Part shown: positions 1,499 to 53,744 of the stretch, in pieces
How positions within the stretch are numbered: the first letter of the stretch is position 1
Layout: each line of letters starts with the position of its first letter
DNA from: Polytrichum commune
Taxonomy: Eukaryota > Streptophyta > Polytrichopsida > Polytrichales > Polytrichaceae
Assembly: GCA_950295325.1 (NCBI GenBank)
Contig: OX485804.1
Coordinates: 16,740,001 to 16,804,000 of the forward strand
Direction: 5' to 3'
DNA length: 64,000 nt
Program-made: the position numbers and the translations under genes
Notes under the pieces: generated by a model
What the model saw: the letters and a program-made list of their open reading frames with translations, nothing else
Told to the model about the DNA's origin: nothing
Databases searched by the model: none

Positions 1499-1500
<2 letters not shown>
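1..1500. other. AT-rich intergenic DNA, no gene recognised
   Basis: No open frame here shows a recognisable domain or a convincing exon structure, and no RNA gene or terminal repeat was found. The stretch around 1020-1380 is less AT-rich and carries short open frames. They resemble nothing I can name and could be remains of an old retroelement. Confidence 0.4.

Positions 1501-1535
<35 letters not shown>
1501..1535. repeat. (GA)n microsatellite
   Basis: An uninterrupted AG dinucleotide run of about 35 bases. Confidence 0.9.
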
Positions 1536-1537
<2 letters not shown>

Positions 1538-1618
1538 CTTGCCAACACCTTAGGTTTTGAAAAAAACCAGATCTGAAATCTACGGTCCAGATCTGTTTTT
1601 GAAAATTAAATTTTTATT

Positions 1619-1707
1619 GAGTTGGGCTTCTCCGGCCTCAAGAGGCCGGACAAGAAACTCCTCCTCCAGAGAAGCCCAACTCCAAAAAGTGCCGCCATGT
1701 AGGCGGC
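1619..1707. repeat. Compound hairpin cluster
   Basis: Three nested or adjacent perfect inverted repeats. The outer arms are 14 bp (1619-1632 and 1669-1682, GAGTTGGGCTTCTC against its complement). Inside sits an 18-bp palindrome at 1632-1649 (CCGGCCTC, AA, GAGGCCGG). Immediately downstream is a 6-bp stem with a 5-nt loop at 1691-1707 (GCCGCC/GGCGGC). The cluster is GC-rich against an AT-rich background. It lies about 160 bp inside the element end at 1867 and may be part of that element. Confidence 0.7.
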
Positions 1708-1847
1708 CATGTCATTTTATCATCCATGAGAAAAGTTCACCACCATTGTTTTCTTCACCTAGTGTAAACACCCACCGGTCAAGAGTTGCATTTTCGACCA
1801 ATCACAATTGAGAAACGCCTTTTTTTTAATGATCGGTGGACTTCTCC

Positions 1848-1867
1848 ACCATAGTGTAAACCGGCCC
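1848..1867. mobile_element. Solo terminus of a GGGCC-type MITE
   Basis: The sequence ends ...TAGTGTAAACCGGCCC followed by TTA, which is the right end of the GGGCC...TTTACAC element type seen at 27747-28453 and 55555-56007. I could not find a matching left end, so only one terminus is claimed. Confidence 0.5.
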
Positions 1868-2582
1868 TTAACCATCTTGTACTAATCGTGTGTTTCATAT
1901 CCTAAGGGAAGTAGGTCAATCCTGAACAAGTAACCATTTAAGACCCATCTACCTTGCACAATGTGCATGACAAGTGTAATTAGGGCTGCATATTATTTTA
2001 ATGCATGTGGTTGTACATTGTGGGCCACACATTGTAGGGTTTCCCGGGACAAGTCACACTACATCTGCCCACACTATTTACCATAATCAGTCACCAGTGC
2101 AATATATGTCATGATTGCAATTTGCATAACAAAAAAATGTCTTTGGAGGGTTTGCATGGTCATAATAGCATGCCTCATACTGATACACATTGGACAAACA
2201 TCTGTACCTTAATTTAAATATTTACCATAAATAGTATTTTTACAAAATTTCTGTGGTCAAATTTGCTCTCAAAATTGCTGCACTTAGCACTGATGCAGGA
2301 GCAGCTAAGACTCCTCTCAATGTAGGCATATAATTGTTTTTGAAGAGCAACTGCACTCTTGTCAAAAGGATAAAATTTAATCCTCATCTTTGCGGCTATC
2401 TTTGGTTGCATGTCGGAGTCTCATGTTTCCCATAGTACATGAAATACATCAATTGTATGCCGACTTTTCTCTAAGGTGCTTTCAATGTGAAAGCGTTTAA
2501 CCTATTCCAGAACTGTCCATGCCTCCTTGACAGGGCTTCTGCAGAACTTTAGACTAATGCGGATGAGCTTGAGGAGAGTTTG

Positions 2583-4847
2583 TTACAACAAATTGGCGCT
2601 TTCAGCTGTGGCATACACTTCTTCGGTGGGCGTGTCTGTGTCCTTGTTTGCATGTGTTGCTTCAACTTCATTTTTCTTTGTGTCTTGAGTGGCTGAAATT
2701 GGCGCTGAAAATAATTCGTCTCCCTCAAACCTGGGAGCTGTTTTACTATCATGAAGAGAAGCCAACCTGGACTTGACAAATTGGGCCACTGTTGCAGTCT
2801 GTGCCTCATCTGCGAAAAAAGGAGTCAAACAGGATTTCAGGCTCATTATTCTGAAAGGGGGCGCTTCAGATGTTTAATTTGACTCTTTGATGCATGAATA
2901 CTACGCAATCTTTTTAATTTCAAAAAATGTAGTTCCAGTAATTCTATCTAAGTAGTTTTATTTTGTTGCATTTGGTTATTGACTTTGCATTATATGCATA
3001 CTATTGAGTAATGCTGAAATCAGATTTGAGGCGCACCTAATCTCGGAACAGTATGGCCATAGCGATGATTAATGATGAGTGGCTCGTCGAATGATTTAAT
3101 CAGTTCTTCGCCATGGGGTCTCAACCAGTCCTTCTCTCCTGTGGCCATATGTGAACATTAGCACAACAGTTAACAATACATATCATACATTCAAACTGGT
3201 CTCTCATCCATCAAATTCGCATTTACAGGTGCATGAAGGTACATTTTCGGGTGTAAGAATTTGACTATTGCACATGGGTTCCTGTAAGGAGGAGATGTCC
3301 ATACACAGAGATGCTTGAATATTCAGAGGAAAGTTTACCAGCGGGCGTTTGCTCAAACCAACCGGAAAAAGTTGGGAAATTATATTTTCAAGCAAAGGCA
3401 TGCATTTCATCTCGTACCTAGAAAAACCAAAGCAGGGCACTTAATAGCAGGCTCCTCGTAGACTGAGTAGTGTGGAGGTGGGCCTTTCGCAGGTGAGATG
3501 AGAATCATGAGACGAATGGGCGGGACATCGTAAAGCGCCAGCCCCTGTCACACCATGTACATTCATTCAAGGAATCAATGCACACTAAAGCATCCTGAAT
3601 CAAAACATCTGCTCTCAAGTTTTGAGGTTCAAATTCATAAATTCTATCTCAATTTCTACACTCTTGGGGCACTCTTGAATCGTAACCGAGATCGCCATTC
3701 CCAGAAGATTCTTAGGTCTTCGAATTCTGGACAGACATCTCCATGCACAGTGCATGGTAAGTACATTTTCTGCATCTCTTACCTTCTCTTGGAGTCCAGC
3801 GAGAAAGTTAGACAAAAGTGCCCCTTGTGAGAATCCGATGAGACCATCGTATGGTCCATTGAGCTTCAAGTGATTAGTTATGAAGGCAATCGCTTCATCT
3901 ACATACTGAGCTTCCGTATATCCCTGAGAGGCACAAACAAGGAGTACACACCTGTTTAGCAAAACGAAAAGCAACACTAGCATGAGCCATTCACATTGCT
4001 GCAACGAGATATAACTTCATCGTATTGACGATTTTATGGAGCAAGAATTTGGGGTAGTTGCTTATAATCTATTTATTTAAGATTGAAATGCTTAAACAGT
4101 GTTGCTTTTATTTGTGATGTGGCTCCAAATCTAAGTCCGTTCCACTCTATAAACTCAAAAAAAGAAAGTTACACATTGAACTCCATTCATCATGGACATT
4201 GTGAGTAGACTCACGGTCTATCTCAATAGAAAAAAAATCGTTTACTTGACTAACTTCACAGTGAAAAATGAAAGAACCATGGCACGGGATGATACGAACC
4301 TCATTATACCGGTACCATTCGTAGTAAGGACCATCGAAGTAGCCCTCAACATCTGACTTGCCGACAGCTGGGAGGGGCCCATCGATCGCATCCTGTAGGT
4401 TACATGTCCGTAATTCCAATTCATGTCGTTGATATATAAACTCCTCTTACCCGTTTCTCTTGAACAGAAACAATGTATTATGCAGCTCTCAGGTGCAGAT
4501 TCAATACAGACAATGCTACACAACTTATGGAAAAGCAACTAGGTTTCCTAGGCATGCAATATATAGGAGAAACAGCTACAGTGGATCGAAGGATGAATCA
4601 GTGAAAGGACATGGAAAGCACATCCCTGAGATGCAAACAAGTGAAACGGTCGCAGAGCTTTGTAGCATCCGGCAAATGCAGTTTGAGTTTAAAAGTAGGA
4701 GAGGTCCAATACCAGCTCGAAAAGATCAAGTATAGAGGAATTCCACTTCGAGAGCTGGCGGCGGAGGATATCGCCGCTTGTTCGATATCCGTGCAATCCT
4801 AGCAATTTCAGCTTTTTTGGCTCTGAGTGGCTGCTCTCATACCCCAT
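2583..4847 (-). CDS. FSH1/OVCA2-family serine hydrolase, six exons
   Basis: Predicted alpha/beta hydrolase of the FSH1 family (PF03959; OVCA2 in animals, FSH1-3 in yeast), probably a soluble esterase or thioesterase. Exons on the minus strand are 4847-4713, 4392-4300, 3923-3783, 3544-3418, 3138-3037 and 2809-2583. All junctions are GT-AG and the phases join to 825 nt, 274 aa plus stop. Residues 13-25 carry the N-terminal LGLHGYRTSG strand motif. The nucleophile is Ser108 in GFSQG, the acid Asp169 in GEKDW, and the base His194 in GHTVPRL, so the triad is complete. The family's PYYEW motif is in exon 2. After the fold there is a tail of about 60 residues, polar and acidic, longer than in most relatives. 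An in-frame ATG lies 57 nt upstream of the chosen start; 4847 puts the usual short leader before the conserved core. The physiological substrate is unknown. Confidence 0.88.
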
Positions 4848-5339
4848 TATAATCTGTGTCTCTTTTGAATGGCGGAATACGGTCCAGTATTTGAAATGGC
4901 GCAACTTTTTTCTATCTCAGAACCTACAATGGACGCGATCACCTGCTGGACAAGAGAGTAGTCAGCTACAGACACTATAAACTTGTTACTTCCAAGAAAA
5001 GAACGAAAGGACAGATAGCGAGACTACATGGTTAACAAAATCCTTGCTAAGAGACACTTGATCGATCTCCAGAGTGTAATTATAAGTCGAAGATTATAGA
5101 CATCATTGATTTCCTCCACGATCACATGAACAAAAAGCAGTGACACGGACAAGCGTAGTCAAGGACATGGCAGAAAACTGTCAAAAGAACACCAGAAACT
5201 GATACCAAGAAATGTGTGGATATGCAATTTAATTGCTTCCAGCCTCCACAGGATCACCAAATCATCAACACCAAATGACCAATTGCTCTACTCTCGCAAA
5301 GTGGTCTAGCTCAAGACGTAATGACTGACCTCACTTACA
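4848..5339. other. Spacer upstream of the serine hydrolase
   Basis: This should contain the hydrolase promoter and 5' UTR. I see no clear TATA box or other gene. The satellite-like array begins at its far end. Confidence 0.4.
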
Positions 5340-6705
5340 ATGTATAGACCTGGAGCGGCTCTCCCCAACCCGTAATTCATAGAGAAAACCGCCGCTCAAC
5401 GCACTCGTTACAAAGATAAGGGAAAGAGGCAAACAAACATACTTCGTCTAGTCTAGTTGCGACCGATGACAAATTGCTAAAACGGTCCACCACTACGGCG
5501 TAGAAATTTCGCCTCGTCGAATGCAAATCCTAAACTTTGGGGAATCTTTCGAGCATGATACAAGTACAGCAACGGACTAACTCAGGTGCACTCGTCCAAG
5601 GATCGATAATCTAAGGCTCTCATTACTCAACAAGGCTATAATTCAATCGACATTCATCCTGCATCAACGTCCACTTATGAAGCGATGATTTTCTCTCTTC
5701 CCCGAGCACGCGGAGGTTCCCGAGACTAGAAGTGACAACTAAATATACTTACAGTGTAAAGACATGAAGCGGTTTTCTTCCCCGCCCTAATTCCTCGACG
5801 AAACCACCGATCAACGCACTCGTAGTGAAGACACAATAAACACACGCACCAGAGGCGAACAAACGCACTTCGTCCAGTCTAATTGCTAGTATGGTCCAAC
5901 ATTACAAGATAGAAATTCACCTGGTCGAATGTATCCTAAATCTTTCGCGCATAAAATTATCAATCGCCACTCCTAGTAGATTGCCTTAAAAGCAACGCCG
6001 ATTAAGCAGCGTTACAAGTGCAAAGCTCTCGCTGGTCGAGAAAGCTACGTAGAATCAAGCGATGCGACGCCTGCATCAGCGTGACCTTATTGAACCGTCG
6101 ATATTTTCTCTCGTCCGGCCATGCGAAGGTTCAGCACTACGAGATAATAATTCACGTAGTCAAATGCACATCCCAAACTGCGAGGAAATTTTCGCGCGTA
6201 ATACGACTAAGGCTTTACTAGTGGAGCATTTACCTCGACAACAACGTCATATTTAAGCTGCAATTTTCGTCCAGCATAACAGTGAAACTGTAGTAAGTCT
6301 CTCGGTGGCCGACAAAGCTTAACATACAATGCAAACGATGCTTTCCCTGCACCATCAACGCGACCTTATTGAAGCGTCTATATCTTCTCTCCTCCGGCCA
6401 CGCAAAGGTTCAGCACTACGAGATGAAAGTTCACCTAGTCGAATGCACATCCTCAACTTCGAGGAATGTTTCGCGCATAATACAACTAAGGCTTTACTAG
6501 TAGAGCATGTACCTCGTCAGCAACGTCAATTTAGGTGCAATCCTCCTCCAAGCACAATATTGAAAGTGTAATAAGGCTCTCGGTGGTCGACAAAGCTCAC
6601 GTAGAATGCAAACGATGTACCCCCTGCACCATCAACGCGACCTTATGAGGCGTCGATTTTCTCCCTCCCCCAACGGACACGCGAAGGTTCCCGGGACTGT
6701 GAAAG
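5340..6705. repeat. Tandem satellite-like array (about 280-bp and 411-bp periods)
   Basis: A block starting near 6072 recurs at 6352 and, truncated, at 6632, giving a period close to 280 bp. Shared segments include CGCGACCTTATTGAAGCGTC, CACGCGAAGGTTC and CTAAGGCTTTACTAGT. Older, more diverged units are visible at 5657 and 5880. A longer repeat of about 411 bp links 5345 with 5756 (both contain CAACGCACTCGT). The array lies in the 5' flank of the serine hydrolase gene and shows no credible coding function. Confidence 0.8.
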
Positions 6706-7673
6706 AGCGCCTCCCTCCAGCCTCCCGCTTCCACGCCTAGTCTATTAACAAACAACCTCAGAAGTTGAGTCACGATCTCGTCAACCTACTAATCAGGCTT
6801 CCCAACCGATCACACCTAAGCTACAGTAGTTGTGCATACGTCAGGCGCGGTGCCCCGCAGAGTTAGGATCCGGGCTTCGGTCTATTTAGGCATCTTCCCC
6901 GAGCGAATTGCATCGCATATGAGATTCTGTGAGCGTGGCGGGGCCAGCGTGTTTTGTGTTGTAATGAAATTGTGTAGAAGTTTTGCATAATGATGGAACG
7001 CGGGAGGAGCGGCCGAAGCTTCGCTGACTCGTCTGGAGAGGTAAACACCAAGTCAGTAGGGGATTGATTGACTCGACCACACTAAAATTTGATATTAAAT
7101 TGAAGGAGTTGAATTGAGTGAAGACTCGACGGCAGACTTTGCTGTTGCGGTGTGCGCTTGGGCAACTAACGCCGGTCGGCGGTGACCTTGACCACCGACG
7201 AGCTAAACTCCGTAGTATTTCTAAACTCCGTAGTATCACACCTGTGGCAACCAAAAGTGCACGTGACATTACGGAGTTTTGTAGTGTGAACATGGATGCG
7301 TGATACTAGAGAATTAGTGTAGCATGTGACACTATGGAATAACACAAAGTGCAACATTTTTATGGTGTGGTGTGGTCCACTCCACTTGGCCTTCCTGGGT
7401 GATGTGGCTGACGCATGCACCAACATTCAACAAGTGCCATAAGAAGGAGAAGAAGAATAAGAAGGTGACACTCCACATACTGGCGCAATGCGAGGGTGTG
7501 GGTTGACTTCCTTGCATTAATGACAAAATTCGTGATATAAGAGAGAGAAAGGTGGCAATAAGGAGTGGGATTTGAACTATGAACATCCCTTCCCTAGGGT
7601 TTCGGGATATTAAAGAGTGAGTGACATTATGGGGGTTGGTATTACGGAGTTTAGGGTGTAGCTTTTTGAGCGT
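6706..7673. other. GC-richer intergenic stretch with short ACGGAGTTT repeats
   Basis: The part 6850-7200 is richer in GC than its surroundings. It includes a possible short first-exon-like frame (ATG near 6990, donor GTAAAC near 7040), but no following exon was recognised. Copies of CTAAACTCCGTAGTAT and its inverse occur at 7204-7235, 7268-7285 and 7640-7655 and look like remnants of a small inverted-repeat element. Confidence 0.3.
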
Positions 7674-8580: not shown

Positions 8581-9341
8581 GGGGCCATTCACAGTTGGGG
8601 TACTACTTTTGGGACAAAGGACTTAAGGACTTTGTCGCATTGATCTTGGTTTTTATCATGATTTACTATTATTTGATCAATAAATTTTACATAAATAAGT
8701 AGATAGTCCATAAGCTTTATCAAGAAAAAAATTTATTATTATTTAATAATCACCCTAAACCCTAAACCCTAAACCCTAGGCCACATCAGTGGCATTTTTT
8801 TGCTATTTAGGTGTGCATTGGTGGTCAATTATTTCCTGTTATGTATCTTGTTACCTTGGTAAAAGTGTCATGTGTTCATTCATATAAATTTTTTTGTCCA
8901 ATTCTAATACTAGACGTTCCTTTTACGTGCGGCCGTGAGTATATGTATATTTGGACATGTTTGGTGCCACATGTAAAGTTGGGCAATTGCTATTCAATAC
9001 ATATTTGGTTCTATTGGTACACACTTGAACGATGAGTGTGAGGAAAAAAAATTGGGATCGTTTCGATTGATTCTTGTTGTCCTTTTCATTCCTTGATCCT
9101 AAGGTGAACAATTAAGATAGCACTCTTGAATGTCCTTTAAGGAATCAAAATGATATCTTAGATGACCCTATTCCTTCTAAATTAACTTTGTCAGTGTACT
9201 CGATATGGAGTATGAAATGTAGGTATGATCCAAAATATGCCTCACAATACAAATCTAAGCATACCAAGCATGTGAAGTTATCCAAAAAAGTCCGTTTTTC
9301 GTTAGACGGCCAAAAGTAGTACCCCAACCGTGAATGGCCCC
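8581..9341. mobile_element. Inverted-repeat element with GGGGCCATTCAC ends
   Basis: Terminal inverted repeats of about 32 bp with one clear mismatch begin GGGGCCATTCACAGTTGGGG at 8581 and end at 9341. The flanks share AGGC on both sides (8577-8580 and 9342-9345), a possible 4-bp target duplication. The interior is AT-rich, has no transposase and contains a short telomere-motif run. The superfamily is not certain; the GGGGCC...CAC start recalls the Harbinger-like MITEs nearby, but the flank is not TTA/TAA. Confidence 0.75.
8753..8779 (-). repeat. Interstitial plant telomere repeat
   Basis: Just under four units of CCCTAAA, the plant telomere motif (TTTAGGG on the other strand). It lies inside the element at 8581-9341, so it is probably carried by, or copied into, a transposon and does not mark a chromosome end. 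Confidence 0.85.
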
Positions 9342-17286: not shown

Positions 17287-20200
17287 ATGGCTGCCGTCGC
17301 CCGGATTCCTTTCTACACTCGAGGCATTTCACATTCTCCAGCTGCCCGCAGTTCCGTCGCGCCCCCGTTTTATCAAAAATTGCAAGTGCAGAGAAAATTT
17401 GACACTGTCTCGAGGTCTCAGACAACCGGGGGGATTCATCAGGTCAGTGGATTTGCGTCCAATGTGCTTGTCTGAAAACAGGAGCTCTGTTTTAATTAGG
17501 GTTCCGGGTCGGCTTCCGGGTCGGCTTGGCCTTGACTTGGGTTCTGAATGGTCGAGGCTATGTTAGTATAAACTTACTATCCCACTGGGGTATGGTTGCC
17601 ATGGTGGCCAGTGAATTAGGGCTTGGAGCTTGGTCGGAAAGAGGCGGTGTCATTTCTTGATGTTAATCGTGGGCAATGTCTTGCTTCAATTGGTATTCCG
17701 CATTGGACCGATCATCGAGTCTGTTTGGATGTCATGGCAATACTTGCTTCATGTCCTGCATTTATGTATATGTGTGACTCGGAACACATTAGCGAGTCGT
17801 GTTTCACATTGTACCAATCCGATCTTCAAGTTTGTTTGGGTGTTATGGAGAAACTTGCTTCGTGTCTTGCATTTATGTATGTCGTAGCCGAAGCTTCGAA
17901 AGGTACCGGGCTTACCCTAAGTGGTCATCTGAAAATCAATGGTTTTCTCAAGGGAATCAAAGTGGACTTACATGAATTTCCTAGTAGCCTGATGCGACCA
18001 CGGCATTGGACAACCTTCATGGGTTTTCTTGTATGAAGGTTCAGTATCAACCAATGTTGAACTGGTGTGCAGGTTAATGCAGGGCATCAATATTCAATTT
18101 CAATAATGGTAGCAAAGAACTTACCGGACTATCAAAAGACGACAGTATCTTTAAATACCGTAGTCACTATTTGGGACAATACTATCTAGTACCACATCGA
18201 TACTAGAATGATTTTACCTAGGTATCAAGGTTCTCGCAAGGTATATAGACCTAAATGGTATAAAACCAAAACTTTTTCAAATATCATTGCTCTCCCCGTA
18301 CCAAAAACATGCAAAAACCTCATAATATATATTTGAATGGTGTCAAAAAAAGGTGATACCAATTCAACACTGGTTTCAGCTGTCATTGACTTCTACTGAT
18401 TTGGATGATTTTATGTGTGATTCAAACACATTAGCGTGTTGTGAATTAAAAGTTATCAAGTAACTTAGATGTTGGTTCAATTGAATCTCTCGTAATCTTA
18501 GCAGGAGGTTTGATTAATGACCATTCATTATTGGATTTTGGGTGCATCCTTGCAGGCTAGATGGCAAGCTTCATCGACATCAATCATAAGATGTAACGCT
18601 CACAGCAGTTACAATGAAAATGCACCATCACAAAACTCAACCACTGACAGTGAGTGGGTCAAGCCATGGACTGCCATCAAGATTGTATGTTTTCCAACTC
18701 TTTGGCTCATTGGAATAGATGTATGCAATTCCAACGCATGTCATATGTCTTTTGTTTGCCCCTTACCTTTTATAGGTCTAAGAGGCCCGATCTGGGCCTC
18801 CAGGTGTCATATTGAGGGAAGGGTGTAAGACAACTTCTTGATGTTTTAATCTAAAAGTGTCAAAAGTTCTCCCATCTTAAGTTAGCCCATTTATCATATG
18901 CATTGTTTGAAACGAAGCAGACATATATGTAAAATGAATCATAAGGAGATTTTAGCTTGTGTAAATGACCTGGACTTACATACATATCACTTACATCTTA
19001 TCACTGTTATCAATTGTGGCTTTATTTTCACTTCCTCTTCTTGATAGGTTGTACTACGCATGGATTCAATATCATAGACCAAATAAAATATCAATACTTT
19101 TTGAAGGTTGATTCAAATCATCATGTAATCCTGTATAAACCCACACACACCCCAGTCCTATAAGGGTTAACTCCAAAGGAATTGAATACACAATCATCAT
19201 GTTAAATAGGACAAAAGATTTGTTCATGTGCAGGGTGCTTTGGCTGCGGTACCACTTGTCATTGGGGCATTTTTCAGAACCACAATTGCATCCGCCGCAG
19301 CAGAGCATTCAATAGGAACGTCAAGCCTGGGTCTTAAAGTTGCCAAATATTTGCGAGGATCCGGCTGGTGTGACGAAGCCATTGTGGCATTCATAGCCAG
19401 CCTTCCCATCCTCGAGCTTCGTGGGGCAATTCCAGTTGGTTATTGGATGCAGCTGCCTCCTCTTAAAACCTATTTGTTAGCTGCTGTTGGGTGAGCCTCA
19501 TAATATTCTTTATTTTAGGTAGCTTATTTAGGTTCCAATACAAATGGAATAAGTCTTAGGTAATCCGAATAACCTAAGAACGATCCATGTGGATGCGACC
19601 TCTTCAATTGAATTCTGGTAGATGGAAAAAGGCTTTGTATCCGAAGATAGGCAACAATGACATGTTCATTAATGAGAAACTGCCACTTGATTATCCTTGG
19701 CATTCATGCATGCACTCAAGGACATTGATACTTGAAATTTTATTCTTGAAGGTAGAATAGAAAGAGAGCGTGCTTACACATGCTTACGAATGCTATGAGA
19801 ACTATCTATACGATCTCCATTGCAACCTGTAGTCTGTCAGGGAAGGCATTCTACCTCTCAAAAATTTGTGATTTCAGCACTCCCAATCCCTTAGTTAGGT
19901 GTGTACCATTCACCAGCTGCAAGAAGCAAATTTTTTGTAGCTTGATTTAGTGCAATCTTCTCCCTTGCACTAGTGTAATCACAAGTGTGCACTTGAGCCA
20001 TGTGGCCTGGGAACATGTCACTTTTGTCATGGCATAGATCCTTTTTTGGTTCTCTTTTCCTTTCGCTGAATCTTTTTGGCACAGGAGAGCGGTACTGGTG
20101 CTAATGAATCACGTTTTGAAGGGGAATTGGTATTTTCTAACTCATACCTATTGTTGTGCAGGAACATGCTTCCAGTACCATTCATAGTACTTTACCTGGA

Positions 20201-20582
20201 GAAGCTCTTCCAGTACGTGGCGGCTAGGAGTGAAGGGGGAAAGAAATTGGTAGACAAGATTCTTACGAGCACACGCCAAAAAGCAGAACCTATACAGGAG
20301 TTTCAATGGCTTGGCCTCATGTTGTTCGTCGCAGTTCCATTTCCTGGCACTGGTGCATGGACCGGTGCTTTTGCTGCGTCAATATTAGGGTTCACATTCT
20401 GGGATGCAATTTCTGCCAATTTTGTAGGTGTCTTGCTAGCAGGTGTGTTGGTGAATTTAGTTGTGAGTGTGGGCCTACGGGAGGCTCTGTTTGTGGGTAT
20501 AGGTCTCTTTACTTTGTCGACTTTTATGTGGCGGATCCTCCGGTTTCTTAAAAAGGGAAGAAGTCCGGATGCGCAAGGGTAA
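17287..20582 (+). CDS. Small multi-drug export family membrane protein, plastid-type leader, four exons
   Basis: Member of the putative small multi-drug export family (PF06695), an integral membrane family of unproven transport function. Exons are 17287-17442, 18556-18684, 19234-19490 and 20162-20582, with GT-AG junctions that join to 963 nt, 320 aa. The first 95 residues are rich in Ser, Arg and Ala with few acids, as in a chloroplast transit peptide. The family core follows in exons 3 and 4: LPILELRGAIPVGYW, then NMLPVPFIVLYLE at 182-194, then PFPGTGAWTGAFAA starting at 240, with hydrophobic segments between and after, and a basic C-terminus. The frame is open upstream to 17071, so a start 72 codons earlier is possible. 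I chose the ATG at 17287 because it gives a typical leader length. Transport substrate unknown. Confidence 0.85.
17700..17885 (+). repeat. Two-copy direct repeat inside intron 1
   Basis: A 62-bp segment near 17710-17773 is repeated at 17821-17882, a period of about 111 bp. Both copies end TGCATTTATGTAT. An open frame of 137 codons runs across it, starting at a non-ATG codon, and encodes the repeat as two similar peptides. I regard this frame as incidental. Another fragment of the unit (AACACATTAGCG) appears at 18426. Confidence 0.6.
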
Positions 20583-31475: not shown

Positions 31476-31515
31476 AGGGGGGAGAAGAAACGAGAGGTTT
31501 GAGTGAGTAGTAGGG

Positions 31516-33203
31516 ATGGATGGTATGTATGGTGAAGATGGGGGAGGAGCCGGTTCGAATCCGGTTGCCAAATGGAAAGACCAGATGGCTCGCAGGTTTC
31601 AGTACTACTTGGATAAGTCGACACCACATGCGGGGATGCGGTGGATAGGGTCATTCGTGGTGGCGTTAATCTACTGCTTGCGGGCGTATTATGTGAAGGG
31701 GTTCTACATTGTGACATACGGGCTGGGCATCTACCTGCTGAACCTGCTGATAGGTTTCTTGTCGCCTCAAGTTGACCCGGAGAGCGAGGGTCCTGCCTTG
31801 CCAACCAAGGGAAGCGATGAGTTCAAGCCTTTCATTCGCAGGCTGCCGGAATTCAAATTCTGGTGCGTGGGATGCATGTGCATGTCATCTTTAACCACAT
31901 AGGAATTTTATGGTTTAGGATTTCCAACCCCATCCCTGTCTGTTCTGGAGAATGTTATGTCGTTGTCGTCGCTTCCTTCCTACTCTTGTAGGTTTTACAG
32001 GTGGTTGAGTGGTGTGAGGGTTATGACCATGTGAGGGTTACATTTGACCAAATGGCAATTGGGGATTTTCTTTGAGAGATTCGGCAACGACCGTAAAGGA
32101 TGCTCTGGAGCTACCTGGGAACTGGTCTGAGGATAGATTCGTCCTATGTGGGTAGGAGAATGGCAATTGGCATGGCATAGCGCAAACTAAGAGATGGAGA
32201 ATGTTAGTGACATTTACCTGGATTTGACCACATCTTCTCTCCCGATCCTTGCTCTTGGGTAGAGGCTACAAGTATTACAAGTTCACGAGCTCGACTGTTC
32301 TATGGACTAGCTCTTCATGTGATGAAGATGTGCTCAACATGTCCGAAAGAATATTTGTGTCCTCAAGTTGAATACTGAGCACTGTTCTTGGCCTGATACA
32401 GTCAAAGCAGCCCTGTGTCTCTACTTTGACTGGCCTATCAATATTTCTCCCGTTTGAAGTCGTTTTTGTTTGTCTCTCTACATTTGTTTGTAAGTTTATG
32501 GGTCTCTCTGCTCTCGGTGGCATCAACAAGTGAAAATGTGAATGACTCAGGTAACTCTTCGTGCTGTGCAGGTATGCATTTACAAAAGCGTTGGTCGTGG
32601 CCTTCATATTGACATTCTTCAGTATATTTGACGTGCCAGTGTTTTGGCCAATTCTTCTGCTATACTGGGTTGTTCTATTTGTCCTGACAATGAAGCGCCA
32701 GATTCGGCACATGATCAAATACCGATACATTCCCTTCTCTTTGGGCAAGCAGGTATGCCATTTTCTATTTACCAGGTCAAGCAAAGATTTTCAAGCGTCT
32801 GAGCAATTTTCTCAATATCAATTGATGTGTAGCTCGAGTTGGTTTATGGAGTATGAGTGAAAGGATCATGTGAGCATACTTGTCATAGGTTCTGCCGCCA
32901 ACCAACCGGCTGTGTTTTTCCGATTGCCCATTTTGCACCTATTATAATAGTTCTGTACAATGTAATTTCTGGCAGCTGAGAAAATGGATAGGGTAGAACA
33001 GTCTAAAGGCCATAATATATTATCCTCTTCGGATCCAGTTAATCTCGTAATTGAGATATTTTTCATTATTAGTCAGAGAAGTGGAAGTCCCTTGTTCATT
33101 ATTGATGTCTGGTATAGAAATTGATCAATATTTCTGAATGCAGCGGTACACCGGGAAGAAGGCGGGGGATAAATCAGATAAGGCAAGCACTTCCAAGGAT
33201 TAG
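31516..33203 (+). CDS. RER1: RER1 retrieval receptor, first tandem copy, three exons
   Basis: RER1 proteins are four-span membrane proteins of the early Golgi that return escaped ER membrane proteins by COPI vesicles. Exons are 31516-31862, 32572-32752 and 33144-33203, with donors GTGCGT and GTATGC and acceptors GCAG. They join to 588 nt, 195 aa, the family length. The PVAKWKDQM and [10 protein letters not shown] segments precede TM1 and TM2 (about residues 43-81). The hallmark [20 protein letters not shown] links to TM3 and TM4 (about 119-158), and the cytosolic tail is basic ([20 protein letters not shown]). The paralog 5.7 kb downstream has the same intron positions and phases and differs at roughly twenty residues, mainly at the two ends. 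Confidence 0.95.
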
Positions 33204-37148: not shown

Positions 37149-37217
37149 GGCAGGAGACAGAGAGAGGGAGAGAGAGATTGATCGGGGCGTGGTTTGGTTT
37201 GGTTTGGGGTGGCCGCA

Positions 37218-39393
37218 ATGGAGGGCATGTATGGCGATGATGCAGTAGGGGGAGCGTCATCCAATCCGGTGGCGAAATGGAAAGACCAGATGTCGCGAAA
37301 GTTTCAGTACTACTTGGATAAGTCGACGCCGCATGCGGGGTTTCGGTGGCTAGGGTCGTTCGTGGTGGCGGTAATCTACTGTTTACGGGCTTATTATGTG
37401 AGGGGGTTCTACATTGTCACGTATGGGCTTGGTATCTATCTGCTGAATCTATTGATAGGGTTTCTGTCGCCTCAAGTCGACCCAGAGAGCGAGGGCCCTG
37501 CGTTGCCAACTAAGGGCAGCGATGAGTTCAAGCCTTTCATTCGCAGGCTCCCGGAATTCAAATTCTGGTGCGTTGCATGCCATTTCTCGCATTACCTTTT
37601 GCATTACTATTTTTCTCTCTCTGTATTTTGTGAATAATTTCTCTTGGTTGTGCAGTTTGGATTATGTTTTAAATTTGATGGAGTGATGGACCTGCCTGCA
37701 GCTGTAATTCTGGAGGAAGGTGCATGAGTTATTTATTTATTTATTCATTCTGGGAATGTTAGCCATGCCTGCCATGTTTCTCTTAATTTGGAATGGTGCT
37801 AGAAAAGTGACCTAGAAAATGATCCAGGGGCTGGTGTATCCTCTCTGGAAGAGGAGAGAGTGGTTCAAGTGATTGATAGAACGAGGATTATTGTTCTGAA
37901 TGTGTAACGATTCTCTGTTTCATAAGAATCCTGATTTCTGAATGGACCTGCCTACAGCTCTAATTCTAGGAGGAAGGCATATGGTTTTTTCTTTTATTTT
38001 CTTTTCTTTTCTTTTCGTCTGGGTATGTTAGCCATGCCTGCCATATTTGTCTTAATAGAGGAATGGTGGGCTAGAATTGACCTAGAATTTGATCGAGGGG
38101 CTGGTGTGTCCTGTATGGGAGAGAAGACAGTGAATCAAGTGATTGATAGGATGAGGATTATTATTCTGCATGTGGAACTGTTGAATTGAGCTTTGCTAGC
38201 CATTCTCTGTTTCACTTGAATACTGACATGTGATGGACCTGCCTACAATCCTAATTCTGGGAGGAAGGTGTATGGATTTTTCTTTTCTGGGAATGTTAGC
38301 CATGCCTGCCATGTTTCTCTTCATCTAGAATGGTGGGCTAAATTGACCTAGAATTTGATCACCAGAGATAGTGAATCAAGTGATCGATAGAATGAGGGTT
38401 ATTATCTTGAATGTGTAACTCTTGAATTCAGCTTTGTAATTGATTCTCTGTTTTACTAGAATCATGACATTTGTCATCTGTTCTTGTTGTGTTGCAAATA
38501 TGTGTGTGTGTGTGTGTGTGTGTGTTTGTGAGTTGGTCCTATGTGCTTTTAAGAAAAGAAGGAAATCTTTTTTGTTGCTTTGGATACAGTGAAGGTGGTT
38601 CCATGTGTTTGGTTAGAGTTTGTATGATTTTTACTGTATTCATCTTCTGGATGGGGTAGGCTTAACATCATAACATACTTGTATCCAAGTGTCTGTGCCT
38701 GTTGGTGTCTCATATGAAGTGTACCACTGCCCTCGCTATGCTTGAAGATTCACATACTTGTGCTTGATTTGGGTGTTTCTCTGTTGCTTTGCAGGTATGC
38801 ATTCACAAAAGCGCTTTGCGTGGCGTTTGTGCTGACATTTTTCAGCATTTTTGACGTGCCAGTGTTTTGGCCAATTCTCCTACTATATTGGATTGTTTTA
38901 TTTATTTTGACAATGAAGCGCCAGATTCGGCACATGATCAAGTATCGATATATCCCCTTCTCTTTGGGCAAACAGGTTAGTCTTTCTCTATAGCACATGG
39001 AGACAGTGAAGCCTCTGAATGAATTTGAGAGTGATTCTTTGGTAGTGTTCAAGTTGTATGATGTTTGGTGAATTGTGTGTTTTCTGAACATGTTTGAGTA
39101 GCTCTCTGCCACTCACTGACCACTAGTTTGTGAGCATTAGCTGTTATTCAATAAGATATCATGAGTAGGTCTTACCAGACTGTAAATGTGGCTTTGAGGT
39201 TGTTGCAGCTGCCTCCCTTCATACCCCATGTGCTTTTCACATCACTTCGATGCAGATAATTTTAACAATGTGAATGCAAATTGTCTTCTTCTGAATGATT
39301 TTAAATTCTGGGCTGGGATGGTTTTCTTGGATGCAGCGATACAGTGGGAAGAAGGCAGCATCACCAGATAAGGCAAGCACTTCCAGAGACTAG
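37218..39393 (+). CDS. RER1: RER1 retrieval receptor, second tandem copy, three exons
   Basis: Exons are 37218-37567, 38795-38975 and 39337-39393. They join to 588 nt, 195 aa, the same length as the upstream copy although exons 1 and 3 differ by one codon in opposite directions. Same intron phases (TG/G inside a Trp codon, then phase 0). All hallmark segments are present: [41 protein letters not shown] and the basic tail. Substitutions against copy one are mostly conservative (for example Lys to Arg and Val to Ile) and nothing suggests inactivation. Intron 1 is longer (about 1.2 kb against 0.7 kb) because of a three-unit tandem repeat. An upstream in-frame TTG at 37194 is not a credible start; the ATG at 37218 matches the paralog. 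Confidence 0.95.
37684..38470 (+). repeat. Three-unit tandem repeat in RER1 intron 1
   Basis: Units begin with TGGACCTGCCT at about 37687, 37942 and 38233. Each contains GTTAGCCATGCCTGCCAT, a (T/A)GAATGGTG phrase, and a GATTGATAGAA or GATTCTCTGTTTCA-type ending. Spacing is roughly 255 and 291 bp. The other RER1 copy lacks it, so it expanded after the gene duplication. Confidence 0.75.
38501..38525. repeat. (TG)n microsatellite
   Basis: About 12 TG units in intron 1 of the second RER1 gene. Confidence 0.9.
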
Positions 39394-45046: not shown

Positions 45047-46673
45047 TTACTGTGCAGGGACAGCAGGAGCTGGAGTGTTCCTTGAGGCCTCCTCAATTCT
45101 TTCAATGGGGACCAATGGAATGTACGCGGACAGAGGTACGTTCCTCCCCTTCAAAACTGAAGCAATGTTGTTATACTGTTGAGCTCCAAACTTGGCCGCG
45201 GGAGCAGCTGTGTGAACCACCTGAGGCACGTAGGGCACAGTCAAAATCTTCTGCCAGGCAGCATATGTGAACTGCTCAGCTACTGGCTCATACCTCTCAT
45301 AGTAAGATGATGCAGTCTCATATAAGCCTTGAGACTGCACATCAGCAACAACTGCCCTGGCAGCATCTGGGGCTTGCTTCGCTACATCCAGAGCTTTGTA
45401 TGATGTCTCCTTTACGTACTGGGGCATAACACCATCTACATATGCCAATGTCTCATCAACCTGTTGAATAAAGAAGCACACCATGAGTGGACAAATCATG
45501 TCCGGGGAAAAATATACATCTGTTTTTGTACTACAGACACACCACAATAAGTGCTATGTTTACAAAGTCCAACCAAAAGGTCGATCATTGCTTATAAATT
45601 TTTTACAAGTGCCACATATAACCGACATGTATATGATTCACCAATATTGGAGATGGCAAATCTCATGCAGTTATATGGTTACAAGACCTATGCGACATGT
45701 ACAAAAGATCACTGGAGTTTGCACAGCACTGCCCGTGACAACCAAGTTCAAATCACTTGATGACATACATACCTTGCTATCGACGTACTGCAAAATCTCC
45801 AAAGGCTTTCCCTCTATCTTTTGATAAACAGGGCCGACGACAGTCTTCACGGTGCCCTCAACATTGTCAACCCCAGGCTTCAGAGGACCTGAGCTCTCTT
45901 TCGCGTATGCGTAAAGTTGTGCAAGGTAGGCAGTGGCCTGAAGCACAAGAGCGTGCACAAGGCCGAGATACTTCAAGTTAGGTTCCTGAGACTGCAAACA
46001 GAACAACACTTAGGTGAGATCATCAACGGAGACGCATTGATGTCAGCACAGGTATATACATAGATCCTTAAACAGCCGAAAAAGTTCAACTACAACAAAT
46101 GGTGTCCCTCTAAACAAATAAGTCTCATGTACACATTTTAAGCCACCTTGCAGGTATCAAACGGAGTCCGGAGCCCCTTATGTAACATACCAGAACGGGA
46201 CACTTTGTAGCTCGACTAAGGCACAGAGAGGCATAAGGTTATGTCTACGGGAAATTATAAAAGAAATCGACCGACAATACTATGCAAATTAGAAATGGCC
46301 TCTTACTACCGAGACAATAAGTAGATCTGCTCTCCCTCCGCATACTCCACATACCTAATCAGAAGCCAATGGAAATTGGAGGAGAGAACGAAGAAAATGA
46401 AACGACACAAACTACAGAAAAAAAAATTCACGCGGACGGCGACACTAATATTCCTACGTAAATGGCACGGGCTGGAGCTTACTAAGGACCTCCTCCAACA
46501 CAACAGCAAAACAACACCACAATAACTAAGTCCAAAACAGAACGGGGGTTAAAAAATTTGACGACGAACAGAAACTAAGCGACATTTGCAGAACACCGAC
46601 AGAACGAAGAATTGATTCAACATCGATCCAGACGAAGGAGGTGTGCAGAACGAACCTTATTTACTTCCGCCAT
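45047..46673 (-). CDS. REF/SRPP-like stress-related lipid-droplet protein, three exons
   Basis: Member of the rubber elongation factor/small rubber particle protein family (PF05755), plant proteins that coat lipid droplets or rubber particles and are linked to stress. Exons on the minus strand are 46673-46656, 45991-45773 and 45460-45047, GT-AG, all phase 0, giving 216 aa. Exon 1 encodes only MAEVNK. Residues 12-70 hold the conserved start (LKYLGLVHALVLQATAYLAQ, then AKESSGPLKPGVDNVEGTVK and VVGPVYQKIEG). The middle is amphipathic (VDETLAYVDGVMP, APDAARAVVADV). The C-terminal part has the family's Tyr- and Pro-rich stretch (YERYEPVAEQ, VPYVPQVV) and ends in a short Ala/Pro tail. A heat-shock-element-like array lies about 300 bp upstream. 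No signs of damage. Confidence 0.93.
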
Positions 46674-48840: not shown

Positions 48841-50007
48841 CTATTAATGGGCTCCAGCCTCCTGGCATTCAAAAAGTATGCTCATGATGAGGTGGCAGGG
48901 AAAAGGACCGGAAGTATCCCGGCGACTGCGTGAGCTGGCAAGGGCCGGGTGGCGAAAGCCCAAAAGGACGGGCCAGGTGGCACAGGCGTCATAGGCGAAC
49001 GGGCGGTGCTCCAAGTCCTCCCAGATTCCTCCGCACAATCAGCAGACACGTGGACACTCCCTGCGTGGGTCCCCCCTCCTTCTGGAATTTTGTCGAAGTT
49101 AATTCACCCAGGTCAAGCCGTAGGATGGGTGGATGGATGAGCTACCAACTTATCATCCATCCTCCACGCACTTCGAGGCCCCGTGTTTGCATCCATCCGT
49201 CCGTCTCGGGTTTTATCCTTGGTGTTGGGTTACTTTATTCGGATTGCTACCGTACAATCGAAGCGTACCTCCTATATATTCATCCAACATAAATACTTTA
49301 ACATAGTATATTTTCCGGATGTTACTTCTTTTTGGTTGATTTGACACCGGAATTAGGTTTACATGAATGGGGAACAAACATATAGGGGTCAAGTTTTCAT
49401 GTTGGATGGATGAGAGATACACTTGCGTACAATGTTACTCATCCTCCTCACAATCAGTCCCCCCTTTTCTTTTTCTCTCAAATTTCTAAGAAGTCGAAAC
49501 AACAACAATCATTGGAGTGATAAAGCTACATGTGGATGGCGTTACAAAACATCATCCAAACTTTGATGATTATATTCCTTTTTGTGTTTATTTGGAATGT
49601 TTATGGCGAATTCATCAATGAAAAATAATGGAATATTCGGGATTCCATTTTAAAAAAATTGTGCCATCTTTTTTTGCATCTACAAAAGAGGGTTGGTTAT
49701 TCTCGGATTTGCAATGTTGGAAGTTTTGAGCTCTGCAATCGTATCCGGAGAAGCCATAATTTACCCCATCAATTTGTGGAGTTGATTTCATTTCGTTATA
49801 AATAACCAATGCCCACTGACAATAAGTCGTGAGAGAAGCTACATAGGTCCCTATTGAACCTAGAATGGTTAACAATTTCGGAGCATGTGGTCCAATCTCT
49901 TTTAACCACTTGGTTTGTTTGTTTATGTTCTTGGAATTTGCACCTAACTGCCCAAAACTCAGAAAGTTAACCTCCTATATATCACTCAATTATAAGTGTG
50001 CAACTAA
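48841..50007. other. GC-rich patch and spacer before the Harbinger element
   Basis: 48850-49140 is strikingly GC-rich, with an ACACGTGG G-box-like motif near 49049. It could be a promoter or CpG-rich relic, but no linked gene was recognised. A 10-bp perfect inverted repeat GGATGGATGA/TCATCCATCC lies around 49130-49162, and related ATCCAACAT arms occur at 49280 and 49400. The rest shows no gene. Confidence 0.35.
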
Positions 50008-50654
50008 GGGGGCCCCCACACATACTGACAGCGAGCGGCAGCGAACGGGCAAATTCAGCTCGTTGCCACCAGCATGTGTGGGGGTAGCAAGCTTTTAAAT
50101 TACTGCACACAGGTAATAGATTTCACCACAGGAAATAAAGCTGCGAGATTGTTTTCCGAAAAGCGGTTAGGTTGGTGAAATTTGGGTTTAGGAAGCTAGC
50201 AACTTGGGCAGGAAATAATGAATTATAGTTTTGACCATATTTCCTGGAAATTATTGACTCTATTTGCTTAAAAAAAATATAAATAAAATTGCGTTGGCTA
50301 GTCACCCAAGTTACTGCCCAACTTTGAGATATTATTTTTCAAATTGCTTAATCACTTTTTGCACTTTAATTATTTAGTAAACAAAACAGTGCCCAAGCTA
50401 CCATAATAAACATGTCTAATATAAATAAAAACAATACCATAAGAAGTCAACATGTCAAACAATAATAACACACAATTAGGCCATCTTTTAATATATAATT
50501 AACATGTTCATATTCTATCATTGAAATCATGACTAGTATCATGATGGCCAAATAATAGACAATATCACATGCTATTGATAACCAAAATATCTATTTACAA
50601 AAATCTACAATTAAGCCGATTATTTTAGATTATAAACCTAAAATATTAAAAAAA

Positions 50655-51596
50655 TCAAGTAGGTCCACTTTTAAGCTGTGCCTTCAACTTTTGAATTTCT
50701 AGTTGAAAGGCCAAATTTTGTGCGGCAATTCTTTCGTCACTTTCTCTCTTTTCTTTTGCTCTCCTATCTTCTGCCTCCTCTTTTTCTTTAGCTCTCCTAT
50801 CTTCTACCTCCTCCTTCCATTTCATCATGGTTAATTCCCTATCGGCCCTATCCGATTCAATTTTAAGCAACATTTGCGATCTAGTTTCTTCTATCTTCAA
50901 CAAAGCCTGTGCGAACCCTTCCATTCCTTTCAATACATTATCCTCGGCGTCATAATATGTTCCTTTCCTCTTTTGAGCTGCTTTCCGTCCCGATACATTA
51001 GGAGAGATTGTTGCCCTGGTCCTCGGTGTTAGCGTTTTTGGAGGTGTTTTATCAATGTTAATCCGTCGTCGTGGAGATTTTCGTGGGGGAGTCGTATATG
51101 CATCCACTTCAATGGGTTGGTTCAAATCCAAACCAGTCGGCTCACTGGGACCTCCAACATGTTCAGCGTCAACATCCTCCTGTGAATCTCCAACATCTAT
51201 TGCACCTTGGATACCTTGGGTTTTAGGTGTTCGACCTCATATTCTATCGCATGTATCAAACCAAATCCATATGGAGGGTGTGCCACATGTTGTACTTTTT
51301 CCCTTTTTCTCTGCTTTCCATTTTCTCTTCAAACTGTCAATTTTTGAAATTAAGTTATCCCTATTGAATTGCACCTTTCCCCTTTCATTGAACACAGGTA
51401 ACATTGTTTGCCATTGAGACTTACCTATGGGATTATAGTTTTGACCTATGTATTTCTCCTCATACATAGACAACAAAATCTCTATCAACGAATCAGTCCA
51501 AACTACTCCACGACTTAACAAAGGCTCGGAATCATCGGTGTTACCCCGACCTTCACCTCGACCACCTCTACCTCTACCTCTACCAACATTAGCCAT
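50655..51596 (-). pseudogene. Harbinger Myb/SANT-like accessory protein with one in-frame stop
   Basis: The second gene of PIF/Harbinger elements encodes a DNA-binding partner that helps transposase reach the nucleus and the element ends. The frame here is 314 codons with a single TGA after codon 119 (51237-51239); both sides stay in the same frame. Residues 1-22 are Gly/Arg-rich (GRGRGRGGRGEGRG). Residues about 30-110 form a trihelix-like SANT domain (VVWTDSLIEILLSMYEEKY, QWQTMLPVFNERG, IDSLKRKWKAEKKG). Beyond the stop are a basic Pro-rich linker (PPRKSPRRRINIDK) and a charged coiled coil with an internal repeat (EDRRAKEKEEAEDRRAKEK). The stop may be a recent mutation or may be spliced out or read through. 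Its lone occurrence suggests recent decay. Confidence 0.82.
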
Positions 51597-51945
51597 GTTT
51601 GAACAATAATGACTTTCAATAACAATATTAGTTTAGGGTTGCTTTATATACATAAGTGTGATTCTCACTTTTGAAAAAAAGAATGTAAAAATGTCATATA
51701 TAAAAAAAGATACATAAAAATATATATAAAAGTAAAGATAAAATATATACCTATAAAAAAAACTTATATATAAACTAAAAGACTCATATCTAAAAAAAAA
51801 CTTATGTCTAAGATTAATTATCTAATAAACAACTTATGTCTAACACTAATTATCAAATAATTGAAACTCATGAATCAATTAGGTGATGTTTATGACAGTT
51901 TTTTTCAAAAAAAATTCACTTCAACGATAAGAGCGTGCCAAAACA

Positions 51946-53181
51946 ATGGATCTTGATATTCGTGACTTTCAAAATGACAATGAGGTGTATCCAATATTAT
52001 ACATAATTTGGATACTTGCATGTGTGAGGAGTTTGAGACAAAGACGAAGAAATGTACATCTTCCAAGAGAATGGTGGGTTTACCCTAGATCGTTGCATCG
52101 ATGGACAGCAATGTACAACAATGTTTACAACATGAATGAAGGAGTGAGGGACAGATTGTGGATTCGCGACTTTCGGATGAAGTATGTTACATTCTTGGAG
52201 TTGGTTGAGGTTTTAAGGCCATACATTCAACATCAACACACACGATACAGAGAAGCACTTCCAGTCACAAAAGCAGTAACCATGGTATTACACAAATTGG
52301 CAAAAGGTCTCGATAATGTGGAGGTGGGTGAAATATTTGCATGCGGGAGTTCCACTGTGTACAAGTACACTTTATTAATATGTCATGCATTGGCCGATAA
52401 GGACAAATTGTTAAAAACATATATCAGCTTACCTTCAGGTGCTAGGCTTGCCAATATCATAGCAGGCTTCCACAATATCACTGGGCTACCAAATATGTGT
52501 GGGGCAATAGACGGAACACATTGCAAATTAAATCGGAAACCACCACAATCATTTATCCCAAGTGATTATTGGTGTAGACATGATATTTATAGTGTTTTAC
52601 TGCAAGGTGTGTGTGATAGTGAGAAGATTTTTTGGGATGTATGTGTGAGAGCTCCAGGAGGGACACATGACGCGGCTCACTTAAGGCAATCTTCTTTCTA
52701 CAATAAATTGATGAGGAAGGAAATATTGCAAGAACATGTTATCACAATTGGCGGACAACGAATCTTACCATATGTAGTGGGTGACGCTGCTTATCCTATC
52801 TTGACACAAATTCAGAAGCCTTTTAATGCAAGAACGACAGGAAATGCTGATCAAAATGCATATGACGAGAACATGAGGAGAGGACGAACGACAATTGAGA
52901 ACGCATTTGGAATATTGAAAAACAGATGGTTCATTCTTAAAAATATAAATGTGGGGGTACAATATGCTCCTCTTATAATGGTTGCTTGTTGTGTTTTACA
53001 CAACTTTTGTCGTATTAAAAACGATACTAGAGTTGTGGAAGGAGAAGAATTGGAAGATGCAACATTGAACAACATCAACCCAAACAAACCTAGACAACCT
53101 CTATCCGAGCAAGCTACATCTAGAGCAGGCAATAGGATAAGAGACAATTTATTTAGTTATTGGGAGGAAAATTTGAAATGA
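51946..53181 (+). CDS. PIF/Harbinger DDE transposase, uninterrupted
   Basis: DDE_Tnp_4-type nuclease that cuts and pastes elements with TTA/TAA target duplications. Uninterrupted frame of 411 aa. Residues about 107-149 form a helix-turn-helix (VTKAVTMVLHKLAKGLDNVE, then SSTVYKY). The catalytic residues are Asp189 in GAIDGTH, Asp280 in VVGDAAYP and Glu318 in RTTIENAFG, with family-typical spacing of 90 and 37. ENAFGILKNRW and VACCVLHNFC after the Glu are also hallmarks. No intron is needed. The start ATG at 51946 follows a purine-rich leader. It is transcribed away from the Myb-like gene. Nothing seen would disable it. Confidence 0.95.
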   Translation: MDLDIRDFQNDNEVYPILYIIWILACVRSLRQRRRNVHLPREWWVYPRSLHRWTAMYNNVYNMNEGVRDRLWIRDFRMKYVTFLELVEVLRPYIQHQHTRYREALPVTKAVTMVLHKLAKGLDNVEVGEIFACGSSTVYKYTLLICHALADKDKLLKTYISLPSGARLANIIAGFHNITGLPNMCGAIDGTHCKLNRKPPQSFIPSDYWCRHDIYSVLLQGVCDSEKIFWDVCVRAPGGTHDAAHLRQSSFYNKLMRKEILQEHVITIGGQRILPYVVGDAAYPILTQIQKPFNARTTGNADQNAYDENMRRGRTTIENAFGILKNRWFILKNINVGVQYAPLIMVACCVLHNFCRIKNDTRVVEGEELEDATLNNINPNKPRQPLSEQATSRAGNRIRDNLFSYWEENLK

Positions 53182-53744
53182 ATTTGATTTTATATTTGCA
53201 TAAAACATTGAGAGGATATTGATGTATTTTACCTTATACTAATTGATTGTAATGGTTACTAATAAATTGTTGGTGTTATTAGGGTTGTTTATCTTAATTA
53301 CATGTTGATTTCATCACATCTAGGGCCGAATATCATCGAGTTCTAGGCTTTAGACTTTAAATTACTTGGGTGGCTAGCTAACCCAATTTTAATTTTTAAT
53401 TTTTTGAGCAAACAAAGTCAAGAACTGCCTAGGTGTTAAGGCACACTTGGTAATAATTATTTTAAGCCTAAGCTTCTAGTAACCTACGGTAGGATTTCAA
53501 CCAATATGCCCAAAATTTTCCCCGAACACGGGCCAATGAACTCAAACGGCCGTTGTCACTCTTGCGCACTTTAGTAAGTTTCTGGTCCTAAACCCGAAAA
53601 CTTACCCGGGCTACCTGCGAACGGCCAAATATTAAGGGCCTTGCGCCCAGTCGCTGGTGGGTCAACTTTTTGGACGAAAAGTCCCTCCCTGCTGGTGGGG
53701 GCCTTCCACTGCCTCGCCCACCAGCAGGTGTGGGCAGGCCCTAA

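Follow-up and report, generated by a model that had tools for sequence, protein, structure and literature searches.

The window analysed here is a 64,000-nucleotide stretch of Polytrichum commune, located on contig C2 of the 408-Mb genome, and it carries at positions 50008-53741 a PIF/Harbinger element of 3,734 bp. This element is referred to as copy A, and copies B and C are its two closest coding sisters. Copy A contains two divergent genes, one for a transposase and one for a Myb/SANT-like partner (open reading frame 1, ORF1), separated by a 349-bp spacer (51597..51945) that is presumed to be a shared promoter region.

Genes and ends of copy A

The transposase gene lies on the forward strand (51946..53181) and forms a single frame of 411 amino acids without an internal stop, which matches the Pfam families DDE_Tnp_4 (9.8e-20, 71.2 bits against a cut-off of 24.8) and Plant_tran (5.1e-13). 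The codons of the catalytic residues Asp189, Asp280 and Glu318 are found at 52510..52512, 52783..52785 and 52897..52899 of the same strand, and the 90 and then 37 residues in between agree with the DD(34/37)E motif of the superfamily, as given in the cited part of PMC4565680. In an alignment of 12 transposases from this genome (A, B and C plus nine chosen among the 104 matches listed in the search described below), both Asp residues are invariant, the Glu is present in all 11 rows that reach its column, and DDE_Tnp_4 is matched by 12/12. The frame is open across all 411 residues in A, B and C, so the intact transposase with three catalytic residues recognised in the preliminary description stands. 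On the other hand, the differences among these three transposases are mostly nonsynonymous (nonsynonymous to synonymous 10:0 for A-B, 11:2 for A-C and 7:2 for B-C) and give no sign of purifying selection.

The AlphaFold2 model of the transposase has a mean predicted local distance difference test score of 72. A Foldseek search of the model against the PDB returned nothing at E <= 0.001, and a sequence search for solved structures returned zero matches at E up to 1. A second structural look aligned it with the Tn5 transposase (Z 9.7, root-mean-square deviation 5.7, 256 residues aligned) and with retroviral integrases (Z about 8), but a Z of 7 to 8 is common even for models that lack a clear match. 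The predicted fold thus appears to resemble DDE enzymes, as expected, and is only supporting.

ORF1 lies on the reverse strand (50655..51596) and comprises 313 codons plus a stop at codon 314, with one interruption, a premature TGA at codon 120 (51237..51239, reverse strand), where B and C have an amino acid and stop elsewhere. Upstream of this stop is the Myb/SANT-like domain (residues 33-97; 51306..51500, reverse strand), and the first piece of the frame matches Myb_DNA-bind_3 (PF12776) at 2.5e-6, with 28.8 bits against a cut-off of 23.6. A divergent Myb-like partner with one stop, as first described, is therefore what the locus holds.

The element is bounded by identical TAA duplications (50005..50007 on the left and 53742..53744 on the right), exactly the flank noted earlier, and TAA is also present on both sides of B and C. 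Its terminal inverted repeats (50008..50027, forward; 53722..53741, reverse) match at 14 of the outer 20 bases, with a conserved inner core, and a match of 14 arose in 3 of 20,000 random rearrangements of these bases. The "matching ends" reported before are thus confirmed as an inverted match, but they are imperfect and lack the G(N)5GTT motif of plant PIF ends, as do the family ends in general (GGGGGCCCCC, TACCCTCCCC and GGGCCTGCCC, the second being the start of the left end of copy C). The outer six bases vary across the family ends (GGGGGC, TACCCT, GGGCCT), and the core CCCACAC-T-CTG is retained. Each end also contains a foldback: on the left (I5, span 50013..50084), bases 50013-50027 are inverted relative to 50070-50084 with 93% of 15 matching, and on the right (I15, span 53688..53728), bases 53688-53699 are inverted relative to 53717-53728 with 12/12 matching. 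Further inside, a subterminal inverted repeat (I1) of 66 nt joins 50246..50311 and 53364..53429, both listed on the forward strand, at 79%. Rfam at gathering scores gave zero matches in the window.

Family copies and evidence for transposition

When the genome was searched with the transposase (101 of 1,193 candidates scored, 104 matches listed), B (C5, 11.03 Mb) and C (C5, 23.00 Mb) were found to encode transposases 98% identical to that of A. The next-best listed matches have 51-83% identity and are partial or interrupted, and the remaining ones, many of them open, are at 49% or less and belong to other lineages. Over the 3' part of 2.6 kb, substitutions amount to 20/2,642 for A-B, 40/2,641 for A-C and 37/2,640 for B-C (0.8-1.5%). 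No fourth near-identical coding copy appeared among the candidates scored in the transposase and ORF1 searches of this assembly, which has gaps.

The premature stops of ORF1 differ by copy, lying at codon 120 in A, codon 61 in B and codon 177 in C. The truncated products of A (119 amino acids) and C (176 amino acids) keep the Myb domain, and the stop in B cuts it. ORF1 of B was read only as far as an insertion of about 11.5 kb that splits it (C5:11020042-11031551); the outer 2,152 bp of this insertion are identical at both ends, no clean target duplication was seen in what was read (its middle part is unread), and it is probably a very recent insertion of the long terminal repeat type. Two loci, L031 (about 804-2965) and L032 (about 909-3060), hold elements of about 2.1 kb that resemble A at 81-82%, have related ends and contain ORF1 but no transposase match, so that here the partner gene is carried separately from the transposase; L031 is flanked by TTA on both sides, and L032 shows no clean duplication. 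ORF1 of L031 is frame-shifted and that of L032 has one stop; among the five ORF1 sequences of at least 79% identity that were read (A, C, L031, L032 and B as far as its insertion), none is whole. Two further ORF1 loci, seen as matches only, are split or stopped (78% on C7 at 30.38 Mb; 82% over the C-terminal half on C3 at 47.32 Mb), and when the C-terminal half of ORF1 served as a DNA query (20/20 candidates scored), near-identical hits came only from A, B and C.

Two explanations of these stops were considered and set aside. Removal by splicing seems unlikely, as each copy has its stop at a codon of its own. Selective loss of ORF1 is not claimed: three ORF1 stops against zero transposase stops are suggestive at most, and the contrast is weak because the two genes hardly differ in the proportion of possible changes that would create a stop (transitions, 3.1% in the transposase and 3.4% in ORF1; transversions, 6.4% in both).

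The 3' end of copy A also finds seven full-length non-coding elements (L014-L020, 1,089-1,098 bp). They share 98.8-99.8% identity with A over its 3' terminal 414 bp (53328..53741, forward), and their first 380 bp or so are 93.4-95.8% identical to C. Substitutions between them, with indels set aside, range from 0.09 to 1.09% with a median of 0.55% (21 pairs); three elements that are not full-length (L021, L040, L041) were excluded from the pairwise and target-site counts. Substitution rates of 0.7-1.3 x 10^-8 per site per year, which may not be those of this host, would place the median at roughly 0.2-0.4 million years and the A-B divergence of 0.76% at roughly 0.3-0.5 million years. Other subfamilies, about 80-86% like A in shared end parts, were kept out of the insertion counts below; their members are 96.7-99.0% alike in the best shared block (seven elements, L033-L039) or about 98% mutually (L022-L024).

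The target sites of ten insertions (A, B, C and L014-L020) were compared. All ten have exact 3-bp duplications: six TAA, one TTA, two TCA and one TTT, so that TAA/TTA accounts for 7/10. The base before the target is C in 8/10 and the base after it is G in 9/10 (binomial 7e-5 and 4e-6, for positions chosen post hoc), which is a target preference beyond 3 bp, a feature of the superfamily. A nine-letter target motif belongs to the background on maize PIF; a literature search for it found none. The flanks were compared in two separate groups: those of A, B and C are mutually unrelated, and so are the 13 flanks of L014-L020 that remain after the 1-base left flank of L014 is dropped.

Counterparts of two insertions without the element exist elsewhere in the genome. 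When 40 of 3,955 candidates were scored, all the empty-site matches fell on L017 (10) or L018 (34); four were read for each, and 8/8 are continuous through the junction, with a single TTT in 4/4 for L017 and CAA in 4/4 where L018 carries TAA. For A, no empty site was present among the 40 candidates scored per side, where the 40 left and 380 right bases matched only themselves. These results show that the ten insertions arose by transposition, and the near-identical copies at different places, together with the two empty-site counterparts, support recent movement of the family in this genome. The recent activity considered in the preliminary description is thereby upheld, and the search for other copies that it named as a check gave three coding and seven non-coding near-identical copies, each with an exact duplication. 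The single old copy that it had named as the opposite outcome is ruled out by the same copies.

A high-copy repeat of about 310 bp lies just inside the 5' end of C and of the non-coding copies (96-98% in the listed matches; about 521-818 in L009, about 158-467 in L015, and also in L044-L046), and copy C was seen to hold a high-copy repeat of about 300 bp from about base 76 (909 first-look candidates for a 400-bp query). At least 10 elements besides C have the C-type 5' end, with 40 of these 909 candidates scored. Elsewhere, the 310-bp repeat runs into a tRNA-derived-looking sequence, GGTTCAATTCC, which we take to include a B-box, and the repeat is perhaps a short interspersed nuclear element.

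Autonomy of copy A and alternative explanations

Based on the open transposase with its triad and an ORF1 that is only truncated, copy A is probably not autonomous alone. In fact, an intact ORF1 and an intact transposase do not occur together in A, B or C. Both proteins are needed in Ping/Pong and in zebrafish Harbinger, according to the cited parts of PMC2836001 and PMC10288884, and since ORF1 is broken in all three copies, A is best regarded as a survivor that retains only its transposase. It is most likely a source of transposase that would need its partner in trans, or an element that has recently become immobile. We infer the roles of the two proteins from Ping/Pong and Harbinger3_DR, and we also infer the requirement for ORF1 and the present inactivity or trans dependence of A. 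In a cut-and-paste cycle, the Myb/SANT protein of ORF1 would bind the ends and recruit the DDE transposase, which would cut there and insert the element at a 3-bp target that is mostly preceded by C and followed by G; the shorter non-coding derivatives would have been moved by proteins of the same kind. With ORF1 supplied from elsewhere, copy A could serve as a transposase donor or be mobilised itself. Altogether, it is likely that A is a young, near-full-length PIF/Harbinger copy, probably not autonomous, that could act as a transposase donor or be moved given ORF1 from elsewhere. The earlier suggestion that the element is possibly still mobilisable is plausible for its DNA, given the recent movement of near-identical ends, and it is weakened as regards autonomy. 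Likewise, the TGA on which the case against autonomy had been said to hang alone is real, but that view was too hopeful, as ORF1 is broken in B and C as well and the transposase differences bear no mark of purifying selection.

Several observations weigh against the reading of A as a transposase-only survivor. Working proteins must have been present for the recent movement, but the searches above found no family copy with both genes whole; their true source may have disappeared, be missing from the assembly or be more distantly related. The stops of A and C follow the Myb domain, and their truncated ORF1 products might work. Similarity is lower in the left 1.1 kb than elsewhere (differences A-B 20/1,093; A-C 94/1,086, mostly through the different left end of C). 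In addition, L064 may be a two-gene element from a different lineage: it has an open 474-codon transposase frame with IDGSH- and IENVFG-type motifs (2706-4127, forward; 40% identical to A) and, convergent to it, an open 338-codon ORF1 frame (4342-5355, reverse; 26% identical to that of A). The genome may thus still produce partner proteins of the superfamily; the great distance of L064 leaves the odds of the readings unchanged.

What supplied the proteins for the recent insertions is the question on which the alternatives divide. There is slightly less than an even chance that A, B and C have not lately moved by themselves and that they and the non-coding copies were moved by a relative with both genes whole, either unassembled or more distant. 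This would fit with the lack of an intact ORF1 in all five of the closest genes read, and none of A, B and C looks like the direct parent of the non-coding copies, because these resemble C at the 5' end, with 4-7% difference, and are nearer to A at the 3' end. The two open frames of L064 point the same way, and Ping and Pong cross-mobilise mPing at 62% ORF1 and 77% transposase likeness, in the cited portion of PMC2836001. The identities of L064 are far under those values and no matching ends were found in it, and no fourth near-identical coding copy came up, assembly gaps aside. A family that is still autonomous, its truncated but Myb-keeping ORF1 products being enough beside an intact transposase, is unlikely: A and C do stop beyond residue 97, where the Myb match ends, the transposases are open in all three copies and the family moved recently, but three different stops resemble ordinary decay, the one in B severs the Myb domain, and Ping/Pong needed functional copies of both proteins, as far as the same portion of that paper goes. 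Equally unlikely is a family that persists by cooperation with no autonomous member, in which a Myb-only ORF1 suffices or transposase and partner are split across incomplete elements; it draws on the open transposases of A, B and C and on the ORF1-only L031 and L032, both of them broken.

Two further explanations concern the nature of the copies themselves. That the 411-residue frame is a domesticated host gene would account for its intactness in A, B and C, but this is very improbable, for the frame lies within inverted ends and a target duplication at three unrelated places, and its mostly nonsynonymous differences are the opposite of what a conserved gene would show. Segmental duplication has a practically negligible chance as the origin of the copies, with nothing found in its favour, given the unrelated flanks, the exact duplication at every insertion and the continuous empty sites of the two testable ones.

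The family is small, young and well resolved; of its two genes, the transposase is open and the partner broken in 3/3 of the closest copies, so both the need for the second protein and the stage at which a family comes to rely on help in trans are directly testable in it. The ten exact insertions and the two empty-site counterparts are clean targets for typing insertion polymorphism.

The surroundings of the element were described earlier as much decayed, a picture qualified by several gene matches obtained from scanning 5 of 25 open stretches of the window. Two Rer1 family matches on the same strand (31507-31902 and 37182-37637; 1.4e-39 and 2.5e-39), about 5.7 kb apart, are probably a tandem gene pair. 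A match to the rubber elongation factor family REF lies at 45047-45553 on the reverse strand (8.6e-37), and exon-like open stretches match the serine hydrolase FSH1 (3618-4016, 2.6e-11) and Sm_multidrug_ex (20070-20579, 5.1e-30). The window also contains 3.9 copies of ACCCTAA, which we take to be the plant telomere unit, at 8752-8778, away from any chromosome end, and a tandem repeat with a 279-bp unit at 6025-6690 (2.4 copies, 80% matches).

Comparison with known PIF/Harbinger systems

The family is biologically ordinary; many plants carry comparable ones. In the cited parts of PMC6327408, PMC2213677 and PMC2528002, PIF-like plant elements have a DDE transposase of about 400 amino acids, a Myb/SANT ORF1, TAA/TTA targets and ends of 14-25 bp. 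All these features, as well as a size of a few kb and non-coding derivatives, are common to PePIF1 of Phalaenopsis, MtPH of Medicago, Pifvine of grapevine and the present family, as far as those parts describe them. The PIF/Harbinger assignment of the preliminary description is accordingly borne out by the transposase, the triad, the 3-bp duplication, the Myb/SANT ORF1 and ends of 14-25 bp. On the other hand, the transposase of PePIF1a has three exons and that of A a single open frame, and the ORFs of PePIF1 are head-to-tail and those of A divergent, in the description cited. The ends differ as well. G(N)5GTT was the search criterion for the Medicago elements (PMC2213677, in the part cited) and is visible in six ends tabulated in PMC6327408, whereas it is missing from this family, whose outer six bases differ between ends and between subfamilies.

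Four coding loci (L063-L066) served as a control for canonical ends, sought at a threshold of 12/14 beside TAA/TTA. L063 contains a PIF-like element of 5,505 bp (2137-7641) with a TAA duplication, a canonical-type end, GGGCCGGTT, and perfect 14-base ends (14/14), GGGCCGGTTCACAC; it has an open 309-codon ORF1, and its transposase, 49% identical to that of A, is split over two frames, the second of which contains the catalytic Glu region. L064-L066 gave no matching ends at this threshold, which would miss the ends of A themselves (10/14, ranked second once the threshold was lowered to 9), so these three failures carry little weight. The departure from canonical ends seems to belong to this family, because its 49% relative L063 keeps them among these four controls. 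Judged from its sequence, the family is new but its kind, PIF/Harbinger, is known, and its ends lack the usual plant PIF motif.

mJing/Jing of rice resembles the family in its young non-coding elements and in its targets, with TAA/TTA at 67.36% of mJing insertions in the cited part of PMC6850418 and 7/10 here; its ends are different, and Jing is described as a single ORF that carries both a Myb-like domain and a transposase domain. TCA targets are found in 1/46 mPing insertions and in 2/10 here, and mPing with TCA duplications still excises (PMC4561436, in the passages cited). mPing reaches up to hundreds of 430-bp copies (PMC6327408 and PMC10288884, as excerpted), in comparison with the seven of about 1.1 kb found here, and a whole two-gene copy, as in Ping/Pong, was not found in this family. 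In other respects the likeness to Ping/Pong and mPing is close: according to the parts of PMC2836001 cited, both systems comprise a two-gene coding element, recently multiplied non-coding derivatives and an extended 3-bp target, the preference seen here resembling the 9-bp preference of PIF and mPing.

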